This document shows, piece by piece, positions 3,176 through 40,774 of a stretch of 64,000 bases of DNA. The translations under genes were made by a program, and so were the position numbers. Numbering within the stretch: the first letter of the stretch is position 1; the number at the start of each line of letters is the position of its first letter. The notes beneath the pieces were generated by a model, which saw nothing but the letters and a program-made list of their open reading frames with translations, did not search any database and was not told the origin of the DNA. Location: positions 2,370,290 through 2,434,289 of the forward strand of contig NZ_KZ614144.1 of NCBI RefSeq assembly GCF_002884445.1, written 5' to 3'. This stretch comes from Paenibacillus castaneae. Lineage in GTDB: Bacteria > Bacillota > Bacilli > Paenibacillales > Paenibacillaceae.

Positions 3176-4966
3176 TTACTTCGTTAGCTGCTCCATTTGT
3201 CCAATCAGCTCTTCAAACACGCTCATGGCTTGCTCGATCGGCTCAGGCGTGGACATATCAACGCCGGCTTTCTTCAAAATATTAATTGAGAAGTCGCTGC
3301 CGCCGCTCTTCAGGAAGCCAAGATAACGTTCGACTGCAGGCTGGCCCTCCTCCAAAATCTGCTTGGAGAAGCTTGTTGCTGCCGAAAATCCAGTAGCATA
3401 TTTATAGACGTAGAAGCTGTTATAGAAATGGGGGATACGAGCCCATTCCATTTCAATATCTTTGTCAATGACCATGCCCGGTCCGTAGTATTGAACGTTC
3501 AGGTCATAATAAATTTTGCTTAGCTCCTGAGGAGTCAGCGAATCACCTTGCTCAGAGCGCTCATGTACGATTTTCTCGAATTCAGCGAACATCGTCTGAC
3601 GGAACACCGTCGTCCGGAACTGATCGGCGTAGTAAGTTAACAAATACATTTTTTCTTTCGGATCTGTTGTTTTATCTAGCAAATAATCCATCAACAGCGC
3701 CTCATTTAACGTCGAAGCAACCTCAGCAAGGAATATCGTGTACTGCGCGTCGCGATAATTTTGGTTTGTATCTGAATAGTAGGAGTGAAGCGCGTGGCCC
3801 ATCTCATGCGCCAACGTGAACATGCTGTTCAAATTGTCCTTATGGTTAAGCAGGACATAAGGATGCGTGCCGAAAGCTCCCCAGCTGTAAGCTCCGCTGC
3901 GTTTCCCTTCATTCTCGTAAACGTCGATCCAGCCGTTTTCAAACCCTTCATTCAGAACTTTCAAATAATCGTCGCCAAGCGGCTTAAGACTTTCGTTGAT
4001 CGTTTTCTTCGCTTCCTCATAAGTAATGTCCATCTTGAACTCATCGACGAGCGGAGCGAACAGGTCGTACATATGAAGCTCCTCAAGACCAAGCATCTTT
4101 TTGCGCAGCTCCATGTATCTATGCATAAGAGGTAAATATTTGTGGATGGTACCAACGAGGTTTGTATAAACCTCTTTAGGGATGTTATCGCTATATAACG
4201 ACATTTCCAAAGCAGAATCGAATTTGCGGGCTTTTGAATAAAACATATTTTTGGTCACGTTCGCATTGAACGTTGAAGCAAGTGTATTTTTCAGCTTGCC
4301 GTACGTATCGTACATCGCTTGGAACGCTTCGCGGCGCACATCCCGATTTTTGCTCTCTAGAAATTGTATGTAACGGCCATGCGAAAGCTCAACCTCTTCG
4401 CCGTTTTCGTTTTTCACTTTAGGGAATTTAAGATCCGCATTGTTCAGCATATTGAATATTGTACTAGGAGCTGAACTGATATTGCCGACTTGAGCGAGCA
4501 ATGCTTCTTCGTTTTTGGATAAAATATGAGCCTTCTCGCGGCGCATTTCTTCCAGTGTATGGCGGTATTTGGCCAAGGATTCATCAGCGATGATTGCATC
4601 CAGAGCTTCGTCAGTGAGGCTGAGTACTTCTGGTGTAATAAAGGATAATGCTTCACCTGTTTCTACGCTTAGCTTCTTGGATTTATCGGATAGAGCTTGA
4701 AAAGCCGGCTCAGCCGTATCCTCATGATGCTTCATGTTCGCATACACATATAGACGTTCCACATGCAGTGATAGCTCATCCTCCAGCTCGAAGCAAGCCT
4801 TCAGCTGTTTAATATCAGCAAGCTTGCCCTCGTATTCAGCGGCTTTCTTAATTAATGACTTGGCTTCCTTAAATTCCTTGTCCCATGCAGCTTGGCTTTC
4901 AAATAAATCCTCAAGCTTCCAGTGGCTCTCCGGTGCGGATTCTGAACGTTTAGGTACGTGATTCAT
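3176..4966 (-). CDS. pepF: Oligoendopeptidase F (M3 family)
   Basis: A zinc metallopeptidase of the M3B family that degrades short peptides. The HEMGH motif lies near residue 386 of the form given here, and length (596 residues) and the N-terminal SHWKLEDLF signature fit PepF. The start at 4966 has a very strong ribosome binding site, AAGGAGGAATTCG directly before ATG. The same frame continues upstream to another ATG at 5086, also preceded by a good site (GAGGTGATAAACGG). The extra 40 residues look like a signal peptide (hydrophobic core, then GSAAS) plus a linker. PepF enzymes are normally cytosolic, so the short form is taken as the main product; a secreted longer form is possible. Confidence 0.93.
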   Translation of the reverse strand: MNHVPKRSESAPESHWKLEDLFESQAAWDKEFKEAKSLIKKAAEYEGKLADIKQLKACFELEDELSLHVERLYVYANMKHHEDTAEPAFQALSDKSKKLSVETGEALSFITPEVLSLTDEALDAIIADESLAKYRHTLEEMRREKAHILSKNEEALLAQVGNISSAPSTIFNMLNNADLKFPKVKNENGEEVELSHGRYIQFLESKNRDVRREAFQAMYDTYGKLKNTLASTFNANVTKNMFYSKARKFDSALEMSLYSDNIPKEVYTNLVGTIHKYLPLMHRYMELRKKMLGLEELHMYDLFAPLVDEFKMDITYEEAKKTINESLKPLGDDYLKVLNEGFENGWIDVYENEGKRSGAYSWGAFGTHPYVLLNHKDNLNSMFTLAHEMGHALHSYYSDTNQNYRDAQYTIFLAEVASTLNEALLMDYLLDKTTDPKEKMYLLTYYADQFRTTVFRQTMFAEFEKIVHERSEQGDSLTPQELSKIYYDLNVQYYGPGMVIDKDIEMEWARIPHFYNSFYVYKYATGFSAATSFSKQILEEGQPAVERYLGFLKSGGSDFSINILKKAGVDMSTPEPIEQAMSVFEELIGQMEQLTK

Positions 4967-5160
4967 CGAATTCCTCCTTGGTATGGATAAGGTTTGTAAA
5001 GCATGCGGGGCATTATCTGCCGTATCCATGGATGCGGCAGATCCCGGCACCAAGCTAAATACAAGCAGCAAGGCTAGCCATTTCATCCGTTTATCACCTC
5101 AAGACACAGTTTTTGGTTACTATGTCCAGAGGCTCTATTGAATATGCAGCATGTGAAATG

Positions 5161-5343
5161 CTATTCAGCACCCATTGTAAAAAATGCATAAACAATAAGA
5201 AAAAACGAAAACGCAATAAAAGCAATGGCCGATATTGCGAAAAAGCGTCGCAAGCGGGGCGGCATGGTATCCCGTTTCAATATAACGAGCGCTCCCAGCG
5301 CAAAGGCTGCAATAATAAAAATAATAGTTGCTGTAGAATCCAT
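5161..5343 (-). CDS. Small two-helix membrane protein (60 aa)
   Basis: A 60-residue protein with two predicted membrane helices (about residues 5-20 and 34-56) separated by a short basic loop (KRDTMPPRLRR). ATG at 5343 follows AGGAGG about 12 bases upstream. An overlapping frame starting at a TTG only two bases after the same AGGAGG was rejected because of that spacing. It lies upstream of pepF on the same strand with 74 bases between, so cotranscription is possible. I do not recognise the family. Confidence 0.65.
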   Translation of the reverse strand: MDSTATIIFIIAAFALGALVILKRDTMPPRLRRFFAISAIAFIAFSFFLIVYAFFTMGAE

Positions 5344-5421
5344 CTGCGGGCAAAGCCTCCTAAAAATAATGCATAACGATTATGTTCGCTGAACAGGCCG
5401 CATTTTCCTGCTCTATCGCTT

Positions 5422-37031: not shown

Positions 37032-37829
37032 ATGAGTCTGAAATATGATCTTATTGCATTAGATGTAGACGGCACCTTATTGACCGATGATCATGTGCTG
37101 ACGAAAGAAATTCGCGATACTGTGCGAGAGGCAGCCGATTACGGCGCACAAATCGTTTTATGTACAGGGAGAGGCCCGTCAGGAGCAATCCCTATTCTAG
37201 AGGAGCTTGGATTAGGCGGTACCGTTATTACACATAACGGAGCGGCTACAATTAATGCGGATAATCGGTCGGTATTACACCAGTTCGATATGATGCCTGA
37301 GCAATTGTTGGCTTTTATCGACTATTGCCGTGAGAAAAGCATTCATTTTGATGTGAATACCGCATTTGAGATGATGGTCGAGAGCATGTCTTCGGAAGCA
37401 GAAGCGATGTATCATCGTTTCCAAGCGAATCCTGCTGTTCAAGACTTTCGCCTCGGCTTGCCTGAGGGCTTAGTCAAATTTACGGTATTTGGGAGCAAAG
37501 AGGAAATGGATTCCGTACAAGCGGAATGGGAAGGCTGGCCGATGACTCTCAAGTCGATTCGCAGCGGTGATTTCTTTATTGATGTTCACCATGCTGAGGC
37601 GAACAAAGGGAAAGCATTGCAGCAGCTGGCGAAAATTCGCGAGATCGACTCCAGCCGAATTCTTGCGATAGGCAATTATTATAATGATGTTACAATGCTG
37701 GAATTTGCCGGTATGGGCATTGCCATGGGCAATTCACCTGACGCGGTCAAGCTGGCGGCTAATGCTGTTGCTCGCTCAAACAGCGAGGATGGCGTAGCTT
37801 ATGCGCTTCGTGAGTATGCATGGGCTTAA
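37032..37829 (+). CDS. HAD-superfamily phosphatase, Cof/YwpJ type
   Basis: A 265-residue HAD hydrolase. Motif I DVDGT carries the nucleophile Asp11 and general acid Asp13; motif II is the CTGRG turn; motif IV is GNYYNDVTML. The last normally reads GDxxND, so its first Asp is Asn here while the second is kept. The central cap (residues 85-190) is the C2B type. Cof-type enzymes dephosphorylate sugar phosphates, flavin or nucleotide substrates; which one is unknown. ATG follows ATAGGAGAG. A terminator follows, then the 52-bp array. Confidence 0.93.
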   Translation: MSLKYDLIALDVDGTLLTDDHVLTKEIRDTVREAADYGAQIVLCTGRGPSGAIPILEELGLGGTVITHNGAATINADNRSVLHQFDMMPEQLLAFIDYCREKSIHFDVNTAFEMMVESMSSEAEAMYHRFQANPAVQDFRLGLPEGLVKFTVFGSKEEMDSVQAEWEGWPMTLKSIRSGDFFIDVHHAEANKGKALQQLAKIREIDSSRILAIGNYYNDVTMLEFAGMGIAMGNSPDAVKLAANAVARSNSEDGVAYALREYAWA

Positions 37830-37834
37830 AAGGA

Positions 37835-37876
37835 AAAACCGTCGGGGCTCGAGTAAAGCTTCGGCGGTTTTCTTGT
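37835..37876 (+). terminator. Intrinsic terminator of the HAD gene
   Basis: AAAACCGTCG pairs with CGGCGGTTTT (37862-37871) with one mismatch, followed by CTTGTTTTA. It ends just before the 52-bp array. Confidence 0.85.
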
Positions 37877-37926
37877 TTTAATTACAGTTGGCGGCGTGCA
37901 GAGGGTGAATCTAACATGCAATAAGC

Positions 37927-38875
37927 TAATGTGCTGCAGAAGTGCAGCAGATGAAGTGCGGAGCGGCATTGGAGAGGTGAATGTGCTGCAGAAGTACATC
38001 ACATGGGGCGCGAAGCTGCGGTTAAGCGTCTAATGTGCTGTAGAAGTGCAGCAGATGGAGTGCGGAGCGGCATTGGTGAGGCTAATGTGCTGCAGAAGTG
38101 CATCACATGGAGCGCGGAGCTGCGGATGAGTAGCTAATGTACTGCGGAAGTGCATTACATGGAGCGTGGAGTGGCAGTTGAGTGGTGAATGTGCTGCAGA
38201 AGTGCATCACATGGAGCAAGGGGCGGCGGTTGAGAGACTAATGTGCTGCAGAAGTGCATTACATTGAGCACGGGGCGGCAGTTGAGTAGCTATTGTGCTG
38301 CAGAAGTGCATTACATGGAGCGCGGAGCTGCGGTTGAGTAGCTAATGTGCTGCAGAAGTGCATCACTTGGAGCTCGTTGCGGCAGTTGAGCGGTGAATGT
38401 GCTGCAGAAATGCATGAAATGGAGCTCGTAGCGGCAGTTGAGTAGCTAATGTACTGCAGAAATGCATCGCATGGGGCGCGAAGCTGTGGTTAAGCGGCTA
38501 ATATGCTGCAGAAGTGCAGTAGATGGAGCTCGTAGCGGCAGTTGAAAGTGAATGTGCTGCAGAAGTACATCACATGGTGCTCGTAGCGGCAGTTGTGTAG
38601 CTAATGTACTGCAGAAATGCATTCACATGGAGCTCGTAGCGGCAGTCGAGCAGTGAATGTGCTGCAGAAGTGCAGTAGATGGAGCGCAGAGTGGCAGTTA
38701 AGTAGCTAATGTACTGCAGAAGTGCATTACATGGAGCACGGAGTGGCAGTTGAAAGGTGAATGTGCTGCAGAAATGCATGACATGGAGCGCGGAGCTGCG
38801 GTTGAGAGGCTAATGTGCTGCAGAAGTGCAGCAGATGGAGTGCGGAGTGGCAGACGAGCCGTAAATGTAATACAG
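37927..38875. repeat. Array of eighteen 52-bp hairpin units
   Basis: Head-to-tail units begin near 37928, 37980, 38032, 38084, 38136, 38188, 38240, 38292, 38344, 38396, 38448, 38500, 38551, 38603, 38656, 38708, 38760 and 38812, with a decayed nineteenth at 38864. Spacing is 52 except 51 and 53 once each. Each unit has AATGTGCTGCAGAAGTGCAT followed by CACATGG, then a GC-rich half (GAGCGCGGAGCTGCGGTTGA or close variants). The first part folds into a hairpin: TGCTGCA/TGCAGCA in units 1 and 18, or ATGTG-TGCA/TGCA-CACAT elsewhere. Variants ATGTAC pair with TTACAT in units 5 and 16, a compensatory change. 52 is not a multiple of three, so it is not coding. It lies between terminators of two convergent genes. 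Confidence 0.96.
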
Positions 38876-38892
38876 AAAGAAACAAGAAAAAA

Positions 38893-38916
38893 GGCATATG
38901 CGCTTGCGCATATGCC
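38893..38916 (-). terminator. Terminator of the second DEAD-box helicase
   Basis: GGCATATGCGC and GCGCATATGCC are perfect complements. Read on the minus strand the hairpin is followed by TTTTTTCTTG. Confidence 0.95.
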
Positions 38917-38929
38917 TTTCATTTGGTTA

Positions 38930-40774
38930 TTAACGGTTGCGTCCTCCGCGTGGCTTGCCTGCTGAGCTGCCGCCGCTTGAGTTTTTGTGTCCGCCAGCTT
39001 GCGAATTACTCCGTCCGCCTGCGGATGAATTACCGCGTTGTCCACCGCGTCCACCAGCTTGGGCATTGCCGCGAACGGCTCCGCGTGACTCAACGCGTCC
39101 AGCAATATTAGCTTTGCCGCGCGCCGCTGTCCAAGGGCTGTCCACAGCATCTGCTCCACGTCCTGCAACGTGCTCATCGCCACGCGGGCTGCCGAAACCA
39201 GCGCGTCCCGTGCTGCGTTCGCCGCCGCGACCAGCGCTGCCACGGTTATCGGTGCGTTCACCACCGCGACCTGAACTGCTGCGGTTATCGGAGCGACCAG
39301 CACCACCGCGATTATTAGTACGTTCACTGCTGCGACCGGAGCTATTGCTGTTTTCAAAGCGTTCGCCGCGACGTGCGTTCCAGCCTGCACTTTCGCCACT
39401 ATTTTCGGATGCTTGTGCAATCGACTCTGTATTTCTTTCGTTCCGTCTTCCAGAAGAAGCAGGACGTACAGTCTCGCGTTGGCCTCTGCGGCCACCCGGC
39501 TTGGCAAACCGATCCTGCGTACCGGATTGGTCGCGACCGCCGCGGCGTCCGCCGGATTGTGGTTTCCCATTGCCGCTGCGAGTGCTGTTTTTGCCGGAAG
39601 CGCTGCGGCCTCTCTCAGCACGTTCACCTGACTGTGAACGGACGGATGTTTCAACGCCTTCACTGTCGATCGAACGGCGTGTGAGCTTAGCGTTAATGCT
39701 TTGCTCAATCAGAATTAGATGATTCTTATCATAAGGAGTAGCAAGCGTGATTGCTGCGCCTTCTTGTCCAGCGCGGCCCGTTCTTCCGATACGGTGGATA
39801 TAAAGCTCGCCATCCTGCGGCACATCGTAGTTGTAAACATGTGTTACACCTTCGACATCAAGACCGCGTGCGGCTACATCGGTTGCGACAAGTACTTGCA
39901 ATCGCGCATCTCTAAACCGCTTCATAACCTGTTCCCGCTTCGCTTGTGTCAAATCACCATGCAGCTCATCGGATTCAATGCCAAGCTCCTGCAGCTCTTT
40001 GTTCAACTTCTTCGCACGCACCTTCGTGCGGCAAAAAATAACAGCCAGATAAGGTTGGTGGCGCTGAAGCAATTGTACAAGCGTTTGCTGCTTGCTTCTA
40101 TCTGTTGTCTCATAAACGATTTGCGTGATGCTGTCGAGCGTTACGTTCGTGCTGCGTACACGAATATCGGCAGGTGTTTTCATATATTCTGCTGCTAATT
40201 TACGGATTGCATCCGGCATAGTAGCAGAGAAAAGCATCGTTTGACGCGCTTTAGGCGTTTGCGTGATAATACTTTCAACATCAGGCAAGAAGCCCATGTG
40301 AAGCATTTGGTCGGCCTCATCGAGAACAAGCATTTGCAGCTTGCCAAGGTTAACGGTTTCACGTTTCATATGATCGATAAGTCGCCCTGGTGTAGCTACG
40401 ACAATATGAGGCGCGCGCTGCAGCTTGCGAATTTGCGCATCTACGTCTTGGCCGCCGTATGCTGCCAGAACAGTAGCGCCTACACCAGACACCAGCTTCT
40501 TAAGTTCACTCGTTATTTGAATGGCTAGCTCCCTTGTCGGTGTTAAGATGAGAGCTTGCACCTGCTCTTTTTCAACATTAATTCTTTGCAAAATAGGCAG
40601 CGCAAACGCAATCGTTTTGCCTGTACCTGTTTGTGCTTGAGCAATGACATCCTGCCCATTAAGAAGCAGCGGAATGGCTTGCTTTTGAACCGGAGTCGGC
40701 TCTGTAATTCCATCTTGTTGAAGCAATTCGCTTAACTTGGGCGATATCCCCAGAGCGTTAAATGCGTTAGACAT
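38930..40774 (-). CDS. DEAD-box RNA helicase with long RGG-type tail
   Basis: A 614-residue helicase. Motifs: Walker A AQTGTGKT (47-54), [43 protein letters not shown] and [10 protein letters not shown]. From about residue 375 a tail of some 240 residues is made of Gly, Arg, Ser and Asn repeats, much longer than in typical CshB (about 60-90). Such RGG tails bind RNA without sequence preference and may promote phase separation. GAGGAAATATATTA precedes ATG at 40774. It is monocistronic. It is a paralogue of the helicase at 14.4 kb; the two share domains but not tails. Confidence 0.93.
   Translation of the reverse strand: MSNAFNALGISPKLSELLQQDGITEPTPVQKQAIPLLLNGQDVIAQAQTGTGKTIAFALPILQRINVEKEQVQALILTPTRELAIQITSELKKLVSGVGATVLAAYGGQDVDAQIRKLQRAPHIVVATPGRLIDHMKRETVNLGKLQMLVLDEADQMLHMGFLPDVESIITQTPKARQTMLFSATMPDAIRKLAAEYMKTPADIRVRSTNVTLDSITQIVYETTDRSKQQTLVQLLQRHQPYLAVIFCRTKVRAKKLNKELQELGIESDELHGDLTQAKREQVMKRFRDARLQVLVATDVAARGLDVEGVTHVYNYDVPQDGELYIHRIGRTGRAGQEGAAITLATPYDKNHLILIEQSINAKLTRRSIDSEGVETSVRSQSGERAERGRSASGKNSTRSGNGKPQSGGRRGGRDQSGTQDRFAKPGGRRGQRETVRPASSGRRNERNTESIAQASENSGESAGWNARRGERFENSNSSGRSSERTNNRGGAGRSDNRSSSGRGGERTDNRGSAGRGGERSTGRAGFGSPRGDEHVAGRGADAVDSPWTAARGKANIAGRVESRGAVRGNAQAGGRGGQRGNSSAGGRSNSQAGGHKNSSGGSSAGKPRGGRNR

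Follow-up and report, generated by a model that had tools for sequence, protein, structure and literature searches.

The locus and its palindromic array

In the 64,000-nucleotide stretch of Paenibacillus castaneae DNA analysed here (the window), convergent genes for a HAD hydrolase and, on the minus strand, a DEAD-box helicase enclose an array of 18 head-to-tail units, with a terminator-like hairpin ahead of the array on each side (Table 1). This arrangement had been described in a first-pass annotation of the stretch and was confirmed, as were the unit spacings, which are 52 bp bar one of 51 and one of 53 bp; Tandem Repeats Finder returned a period of 52, 17.9 copies and a score of 987. The downstream border given in that annotation, 38875, falls inside a degenerate half box that follows unit 18 and so includes a portion of it. 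A duplicated dimer, claimed for units 1–2 and 3–4, is plausible for these four units, since units 1 and 3 and units 2 and 4 (Table 1) are more alike than units 1 and 2 (72% identity), but no dimer periodicity runs through the array as a whole (mean identity 0.750 at lag 1, 0.778 at lag 2 and 0.777 at lag 3). The pentamer AGCGG, which we take to be the Chi sequence of B. subtilis, has eight occurrences in the array, all of them on the box strand. The window also holds a 39-bp repeat (2.1 copies, 39214–39295) within the helicase coding sequence, close to the Gly/Arg-rich end, and a 49-bp repeat (2.9 copies, 2621–2764).

Table 1. Coordinates of the window array and its neighbours, the host arrays by gene context, and the IS3-type copies (window positions unless a locus is named)
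Feature	Position or locus	Strand	Remark
HAD hydrolase gene, flank	37032..37829	+	Pfam support
Terminator-like hairpin of HAD gene, ahead of array	37836..37870	+	
Whole array, 18 palindromic units	37924..38854	+	+ is the strand with loop GAAR, the leading strand
Unit 1	37924..37975	+	3' arm TGCAGCAGAT
Unit 2	37976..38027	+	
Unit 3	38028..38079	+	91% identical to unit 1
Unit 4	38080..38131	+	87% identical to unit 2
Unit 5	38132..38183	+	ATGTAC paired with TTACAT
Units 6–11	38184..38495	+	6 x 52 bp
Unit 12	38496..38546	+	51 bp
Unit 13	38547..38598	+	
Unit 14	38599..38651	+	53 bp, 3' arm with one additional T
Units 15–17	38652..38807	+	Unit 16 (38704–38755), ATGTAC with TTACAT
Unit 18, final	38808..38854	+	Spacer end missing
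Degenerate half box beyond unit 18	38864..38879	+	Sequence inspection
Terminator-like hairpin between array and helicase gene	38889..38920	.	Seen on both strands
DEAD-box helicase gene, flank	38930..40774	-	Pfam support
Host arrays between convergent genes	Window, L011, L018		Script-called genes, Pfam matches for most flanking proteins
Host arrays between tandem genes	L010, L012, L013, L014, L017, L079		Script-called genes, Pfam matches for most flanking proteins
Host arrays between divergent genes	L009, L015, L016, L019		Script-called genes, Pfam matches for most flanking proteins
IS3-type copy	L010 5090-6515		In array box loop
IS3-type copy, ~200 bp missing internally	L015 4370-5580		In array box loop
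IS3-type copy	L079 4010-5430		In array box loop

Each unit is built around a palindrome, here called the box, which mostly reads TGCA-NAAR-TGCA and has a four-base loop at its centre. The window hairpin reads ATGTGCTGCA-GAAG-TGCATCACAT (10-4-10); its centre is the loop GAAG and not CTGCAG, as previously described, which comprises arm and first loop base. Paired changes had likewise been noted. The combination ATGTAC/TTACAT is present in units 5 and 16, but the claim that TCACAT stands elsewhere was oversimplified (CAGAT, TTACAT, GTAGAT and others occur), and in the window array alone the two changes are not significantly associated (cell counts 3, 1, 4, 10; Fisher P = 0.25).

The covariance check envisaged for all copies was run on 108 units of the host genome (alignment A1, 500 shuffles). 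Stem cells were paired in 89.8% of cases, against 86.7% after shuffling, and 38 cells were changed on both sides, against 20.5; no shuffle reached either value. In contrast, neither pairs nor pair types were more numerous than in the shuffles (218/500 and 178/500), and sliding the partner by two columns likewise gave 38 doubly changed cells. The changes include T-A to A-T at columns 9/27 (16 units) and 7/29 (7 units) and A-T against C-G at columns 11/25 (13 units), where 59 of the 108 units are unpaired. Stem compensation across the 108 units is suggestive, and the paired changes are accounted for equally well by a palindrome in duplex DNA that a dimer recognises. Moreover, G.T-type and A.C-type mismatches number 23 and 8 in distinct host hairpins, and 83 and 124 in the four-box elements described below, so that there is no consistent preference that would indicate an RNA strand.

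Arrays across the host genome

The host genome (G000, 6.30 Mb) contains 13 arrays with about 130 units, each array having 2 to 22 full units. A DNA search gave 17 matches that make up 12 arrays, from which 131 units were extracted; the 13th, diverged array came from weak matches to a covariance model. Units are more similar within arrays (identity 0.845) than between them (0.745), indicating that arrays expand locally. Around host arrays and around box clusters of relatives, genes were called by a simple script; the flanking genes of the host arrays are convergent in 3 cases, tandem in 6 and divergent in 4, and these arrays are not confined to gene ends.

Script-called ORFs overlap 7 of the 13 host arrays. 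Six of them were compared with Pfam, none giving a match; we take the overlapping ORFs as spurious and do not favour a coding role. As the 52-bp step shifts the frame at each unit, ORFs over arrays are considered effects of composition. Two ORFs over arrays of relatives were also compared with Pfam, one having a weak best match of 15 residues only. In the L009 array (4214–5404), all three minus-strand frames are free of stops over 364–397 codons, and the script-called ORF there is without a Pfam match. Close to another host array, a c-di-AMP riboswitch (Rfam; L012 3795–3946) lies ahead of an NlpC/P60 gene.

GC skew places the host origin near 0 and the terminus within 2.99–3.30 Mb. On this basis, all but one of the 13 arrays have GAAR on the leading strand (12 arrays; P = 0.003 against 0.5). 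The bias can be put down to the overall orientation of genes, as 83% of coding length is co-oriented in 20 sampled stretches (P = 0.32 against that rate), and we therefore claim no function for it.

Diverged relatives in the order

A covariance model (R1) was built from 108 of the 131 host units, last units, broken units and some duplicates being omitted. While its search of 50 congeners gave nothing at E <= 1e-4, weak matches led to diverged 51-bp arrays with different letters and the same design, and the idea of a species-specific repeat was rejected on these grounds. The earlier reasoning that an absence of similar units from relatives would point to a neutral local expansion thus meets the opposite finding: strong matches are lacking in the 50 congeners, but diverged arrays are widespread.

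Tandem box pairs (two boxes with a free gap of 35–48 bp) occur in 16 of 51 genus genomes, where the reversed pattern gave 5 matches. In a sample of 392 genomes from the order, 100 have such pairs, up to 249 per genome, and 292 have no strict pair; the reversed pattern gave 12 matches in all, at most two per genome. A scan of named genomes, a set that overlaps the order sample, allowed box distances of 45–58 bp and yielded at least 111 stretches. The 80 loci listed comprise 62 with Paenibacillaceae titles (Bacillus sp. SD088 counted in) and 18 others. Among these listed matches, 77 of 85 box pairs in the 62 Paenibacillaceae loci are spaced by 50–52 bp (51 bp, 58 pairs; 50 bp, 10; 52 bp, 9; other distances, 8), and 6 of 64 in the 18 non-Paenibacillaceae loci. 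Letter identity of the spacers (L127–L237 without L149, L208, L217 and L220) is 0.295 in the non-redundant set and 0.322 over all 32, against 0.251 after shuffling, and the spacers of copies in one genome are frequently very different.

An exact 23-base pattern had no match in the genome-contig and viral-contig collections, nor did a plasmid search give one. The two-box pattern occurs in 15 viral stretches, at 51–52 bp in three (L240 3263–3326, L241 7451–7513 and L252 3818–3880). In P. psychroresistens, a 16-box array (L203 3915–4693) has two adjacent boxes inverted with the 51-bp step preserved, and a 51-bp array at L220 (6277–6820), with the palindrome GGTGCATTTTTGCACC, has the same design in other letters. 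A 51-bp tandem repeat of very different sequence (L090 5753–6057, G049) is perhaps a further branch or unrelated.

The window array very probably belongs to this family of box elements, which apparently has so far gone undescribed in Paenibacillus and relatives. Rfam gave two chance-level matches in the window and five matches over 10 loci, none of them at boxes, and the titles and abstract beginnings of the literature searched, which covered few subscription papers and included PMC12393610, contain no account of box elements. Within Rfam and these parts of the literature, the annotators' remark that no named family fits holds good.

Geometry, phasing and predicted curvature of a four-box element

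In many relatives, the boxes form a four-box element in the order forward-forward-reverse-reverse, at distances of 51-62-51 bp, corresponding to 5, 6 and 5 helical turns at 10.25 bp per turn. Spacings of 51-62-51 or 51-61-51 bp were seen in 28 of 70 raw matches, the remainder lying within 1–3 bp. We took a census of distances over 92 loci, namely the named Paenibacillaceae loci without L149 (an 8-bp repeat) plus L207–L237 (31 loci with titles unlisted); the 18 loci with non-Paenibacillaceae titles were omitted. Forward-to-reverse distances peak at 62 bp (32 pairs) and 61 bp (12; 44 at 61–62 bp), at 113 bp (42), 112 bp (26) and 114 bp (19; 99 at 111–114 bp), and also at 163–165 bp, over a background of 0.10 pairs per distance, and reverse-then-forward pairs are nearly absent. 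The scan for distances of 45–58 bp had not selected these forward-to-reverse distances. A strict forward-reverse pair is found in 3 of 51 genus genomes and, with the strict pattern, nowhere in the host genome; the link between the host arrays and the four-box elements therefore rests on the box, the spacing and a shared insertion sequence (IS; see below).

The spacers alternate between AT-rich and GC-rich about every 10 bp over about 180 bp, in phase with the boxes. For phasing and curvature we used all four-box loci without L103, L149, L208, L217 and L220 (arrays or poor boxes, by eye), made non-redundant at 55% spacer identity (22/40 positions in the curvature set), although several loci may share one genome. 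The one-turn AT component exceeded that of all 1000 permutations (55/112 forward-forward and 37/56 forward-reverse spacers, non-redundant sets). The frequency peak of the oscillation is broad, and the best-fit periods within spacers, 9.6 and 9.8 bp, are shorter than that of B-DNA. In 62-bp spacers, AT content reaches 0.9–1.0 near positions 17, 27, 36, 45 and 56 and is mostly 0.1–0.2 between them; counted from the dyad (18 elements), GC minima lie near 0, 9, 19, 31, 42, 51, 61, 70, 82 and 90. The periodicity ends at the outer boxes, the flanks being flat (position sd 0.069, binomial 0.064).

Agreement in AT/GC class exceeds expectation in 62-bp (0.611 vs 0.501) and 61-bp spacers (0.590 vs 0.505), more weakly so in 51-bp spacers (0.532 vs 0.500), whereas inside a class the agreement of letters is 0.516 (62-bp), 0.539 (61-bp) and 0.517 (51-bp), compared to 0.50. 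Class agreement is thus kept with letters near random, which suggests that DNA mechanics are conserved more than sequence. A wedge model with assumed parameters predicts an end-to-end to contour ratio of 0.739 for 33 four-box elements, compared to 0.935 for shuffled sequences and 0.933 for 128 neighbouring stretches; the four-box spacers are therefore predicted to be strongly curved and the neighbouring DNA is not.

The AT phase recurs in 12 non-redundant arrays from other genomes, with none of 3000 permutations as strong; 13 host array parts, treated as one family, also have this phase, not significantly (P = 0.19). Only 3.3% of 150 column-permuted arrays match or exceed the predicted curvature of the window array. 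This fraction averages 0.177 for 10 host array parts and 0.172 for 14 array stretches elsewhere, with 0.5 expected; according to the model, host arrays exceed permuted ones in curvature by a moderate margin only. The five-turn phasing proposed at the outset is thus supported mainly in relatives, by the 50–52 and 61–62 bp spacings, the approximately 10-bp AT/GC alternation and the predicted curvature, but not by a significant AT phase in the host.

An IS3-type element inserts in box loops

The host carries a 1.43-kb IS3-type element with an rve integrase core and HTH_Tnp_1. All three near-identical copies lie inside arrays (Table 1), inserted in the four-base loop of a box, which is duplicated (GAAG, GAAG and AAAG); four further, more distant transposase matches are present in the genome. 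Among 295 family genomes, 63 have relatives of the element, host included. Thirty loci were analysed, one from the host, and ends with a 4-bp duplication were resolved in 17 of the 29 others; ends were set by end similarity, and ties were broken in favour of the more palindromic choice, a procedure slightly biased towards boxes. After joining the flanks and allowing at most two mismatches in eight positions, 12 of the 17 resolved copies have a partner box 50–52 bp away, and 11 have a partner at 61–63 bp. One of the remaining copies lies in a box-like palindrome without partners and four lie outside boxes. Where there is a box set, the IS nearly always occupies an inner box (11 of 12; P = 0.006). 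As boxes played no part in the choice of these loci, they argue independently for box sets being real units, and the shared target ties the host arrays to the four-box elements elsewhere. The IS3-type element is a natural probe for box elements.

IS1397 inserts in the loop of a palindrome. The present element resembles such REP-targeting insertion sequences in belonging to the IS3 family and inserting in extragenic palindromes, the 4-bp duplication being here the loop; it differs in that its target is the TGCA-N4-TGCA box of Paenibacillaceae, mostly the inner one.

Gene context and terminators

Among 82 box clusters of relatives, 37 lie between convergent, 29 between tandem and 4 between divergent genes, 4 fall on script-called ORFs and 8 are undecided. 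With each gap counted once, 35 convergent gaps stand against 4 divergent ones (P = 3e-7 against equality); we used this ratio because element length biases a background restricted to gaps >= 180 bp. Terminator-like hairpins are as frequent ahead of elements (29/88) as behind genes at large (83/250), and the units of the window array have no T run. The elements do not, then, replace terminators, and we rejected that role for them, together with the identification of the units as intrinsic terminators (hairpin plus T run), relatives being mixed in this respect.

In 29 relatives examined at the helicase locus, neither a strict box nor a tandem repeat was seen in the gap downstream of the gene, which is incomplete in six cases (L285, L292, L295, L300, L302 and L309); nine gaps measure 251 to 626 bp. 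In this post-helicase gap, where the host has its array, an ORF of 29–30 residues starting MSGVHGG is found in L284, L288, L289, L290 and L293 and, broken, in L282; presumably it resembles a YjcZ/SscA-type peptide.

Comparison with known repeat systems

The closest kind of element is REP/BIME (PU) of Enterobacteria and Pseudomonas. Shared features are repeated intergenic palindromes that are lineage-specific, form composite sets and reach many copies per genome; box elements, too, are intergenic and multicopy, script-called ORFs without Pfam support overlapping some arrays. Both mostly lie at gene ends, box elements doing so in relatives, and both are targeted by specific insertion sequences, for REPs including the IS3-family IS1397 and ISKpn1 (PMC1525189, in part). 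According to the parts of PMC2817692 available, a conserved GT(A/G)G head adjoins the REP palindrome and REP/BIME palindromes alternate in orientation. In contrast, alignment A1 of 108 host units shows no conserved GT(A/G)G head, and boxes run head-to-tail in arrays or forward-forward-reverse-reverse. Box elements also differ in their fixed 5-6-5-turn geometry, their AT/GC phasing and their occurrence in Paenibacillaceae and relatives. Moreover, Y1_Tnp is missing from the host genome, and among the genomes tested 7 of 18 with boxes lack it while 9 of 16 lacking strict pairs have it; boxes are thus not tied to the Y1 transposase, and a RAYT-driven REP was rejected. A CRISPR array was also rejected, as the whole 52-bp unit is repeated and variable throughout, unlike near-identical repeats with unique spacers. 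In nucleosome-positioning DNA, AT and GC steps alternate about every 10 bp. Box elements share this alternation over many turns but are bacterial, comprise four palindromic boxes and imply no histone. The nucleosome comparison has been drawn for the gyrase motif in the accessible part of PMC6379681.

Weighing the explanations

The observations to be accommodated are the boxes, their spacing, the phasing in relatives, the predicted curvature, the targeting by the IS3-type element and the mostly intergenic location. A helically phased, curved duplex-DNA nucleoprotein scaffold probably accounts for them best. Whole-turn spacing, in-phase bending and dyad symmetry together point to duplex DNA wound on protein. 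DNA gyrase is one candidate for this protein, a special case of the scaffold whose probability is contained in that of the scaffold and which we consider rather doubtful: as proposed for E. coli BIME-2, the elements would be strong gyrase sites, their phased, bendable DNA wrapping on gyrase, which clears positive supercoils between genes. In favour of gyrase, the box elements of relatives occupy 35 distinct convergent gaps and 4 divergent ones. Against it, gyrase is general to bacteria, while strict boxes occur in 100 of 392 genomes, and the host arrays are not confined to convergent ends. The E. coli gyrase motif, as far as covered by the part of PMC6379681 consulted, is symmetric, spans 130 bp with a 10.75-bp GC periodicity on both sides of an aperiodic 36-bp centre containing the cleavage site, and BIME-2 palindromes are preferred gyrase sites with loops favoured. 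Strong gyrase sites (Mu SGS, BIME-2) thus share with box elements length, symmetry and a GC period of about one turn, but box periodicity continues through the dyad over about 180 bp, with four defined palindromes. The best-fit period inside the box spacers is 9.6–9.8 bp. It is unlikely that the elements are selfish or neutral repeats, spread by recombination, replication slippage or a mobile agent, with spacing inherited and unselected. Local growth of arrays, as judged from unit identities, and the box-free helicase-locus gaps of relatives agree with such spread, as do five of six fetched copies in genome G270, which share a longer, nearly identical unit and so suggest recent spread. However, spacing is constant to about 1 bp and AT/GC phasing persists with letters near random, which neutral decay would not achieve, and the Y1 transposase proposed as REP mover is absent from the host and other box-bearing genomes. 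In G270, the loci concerned (L322, L324–L327) have the four-box element within a longer, nearly identical dispersed repeat; the sixth copy did not match the exact search string.

A non-autonomous, MITE-like transposon with boxes as transposase binding sites would fit the dispersal of four-box elements, their inverted ends and the recent copies in G270, but is improbable given that neither target duplication nor a sharp common border was seen by eye in G270, that the IS inserted in boxes treats them as a target while its own ends differ from them, and that spacers of same-genome copies often differ strongly. Least probable is a structured RNA or bidirectional terminator acting in transcripts that read into the array, a possibility raised in the first-pass annotation and left unsupported by the inconsistent strand preference of mismatches, with G.T exceeding A.C in host hairpins but A.C exceeding G.T in four-box elements. 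Part of the array folds well (277 nt, z = -3.06, 1/200 shuffles as good), a terminator-like hairpin with T run is present on at least one strand in 32 of 70 element clusters, and the window array alone among host arrays is preceded by a terminator-like hairpin on both sides. On the other hand, these hairpins come first on either side of the window array, precede elements no more often than expected from other genes, and are not matched by T runs in the window units; no Rfam match fell on an element in the window or the 10 loci searched, and a periodicity in duplex turns is unexpected for RNA.

A probable curved nucleoprotein scaffold

Under the scaffold reading, the window array would be a tandemly expanded member of order-wide box elements that work as duplex DNA. 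The box palindrome, with its core TGCA-N4-TGCA and usually A-rich centre, would be readable by a dimeric DNA-binding protein. Boxes 5 turns (51–52 bp) apart, and 6 turns (61–62 bp) apart across the four-box dyad, are separated by whole turns and so would face one side of the helix, with AT-rich steps about every 10 bp bending the DNA in one direction. Boxes and curved DNA may thereby be wound into one nucleoprotein particle in the cell, of about 18 turns for a four-box element, and long arrays such as that in the window may form a long nucleoprotein superhelix. Its purpose could be chromosome organisation or the handling of supercoils between transcription units. Neither the weaker stem statistics nor the shorter best-fit period changed our judgement, which was never based on stems. 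As a more specific and tentative proposal, for which we see a real if minor chance, a dedicated Paenibacillales protein would form an 18-turn, dyad-symmetric DNA-wrapping particle, with superhelices on the arrays of this host and the IS recognising bent inner boxes.

If the scaffold reading is right, box elements would be a Gram-positive counterpart of BIMEs whose mechanism can be read from the geometry, the boxes sharing one face of the helix and the bends keeping step with them. Natural variants would retain spacing and phase while their sequence changes, and the family would open direct tests of the intergenic placement of wrapped or topologically active nucleoprotein complexes.
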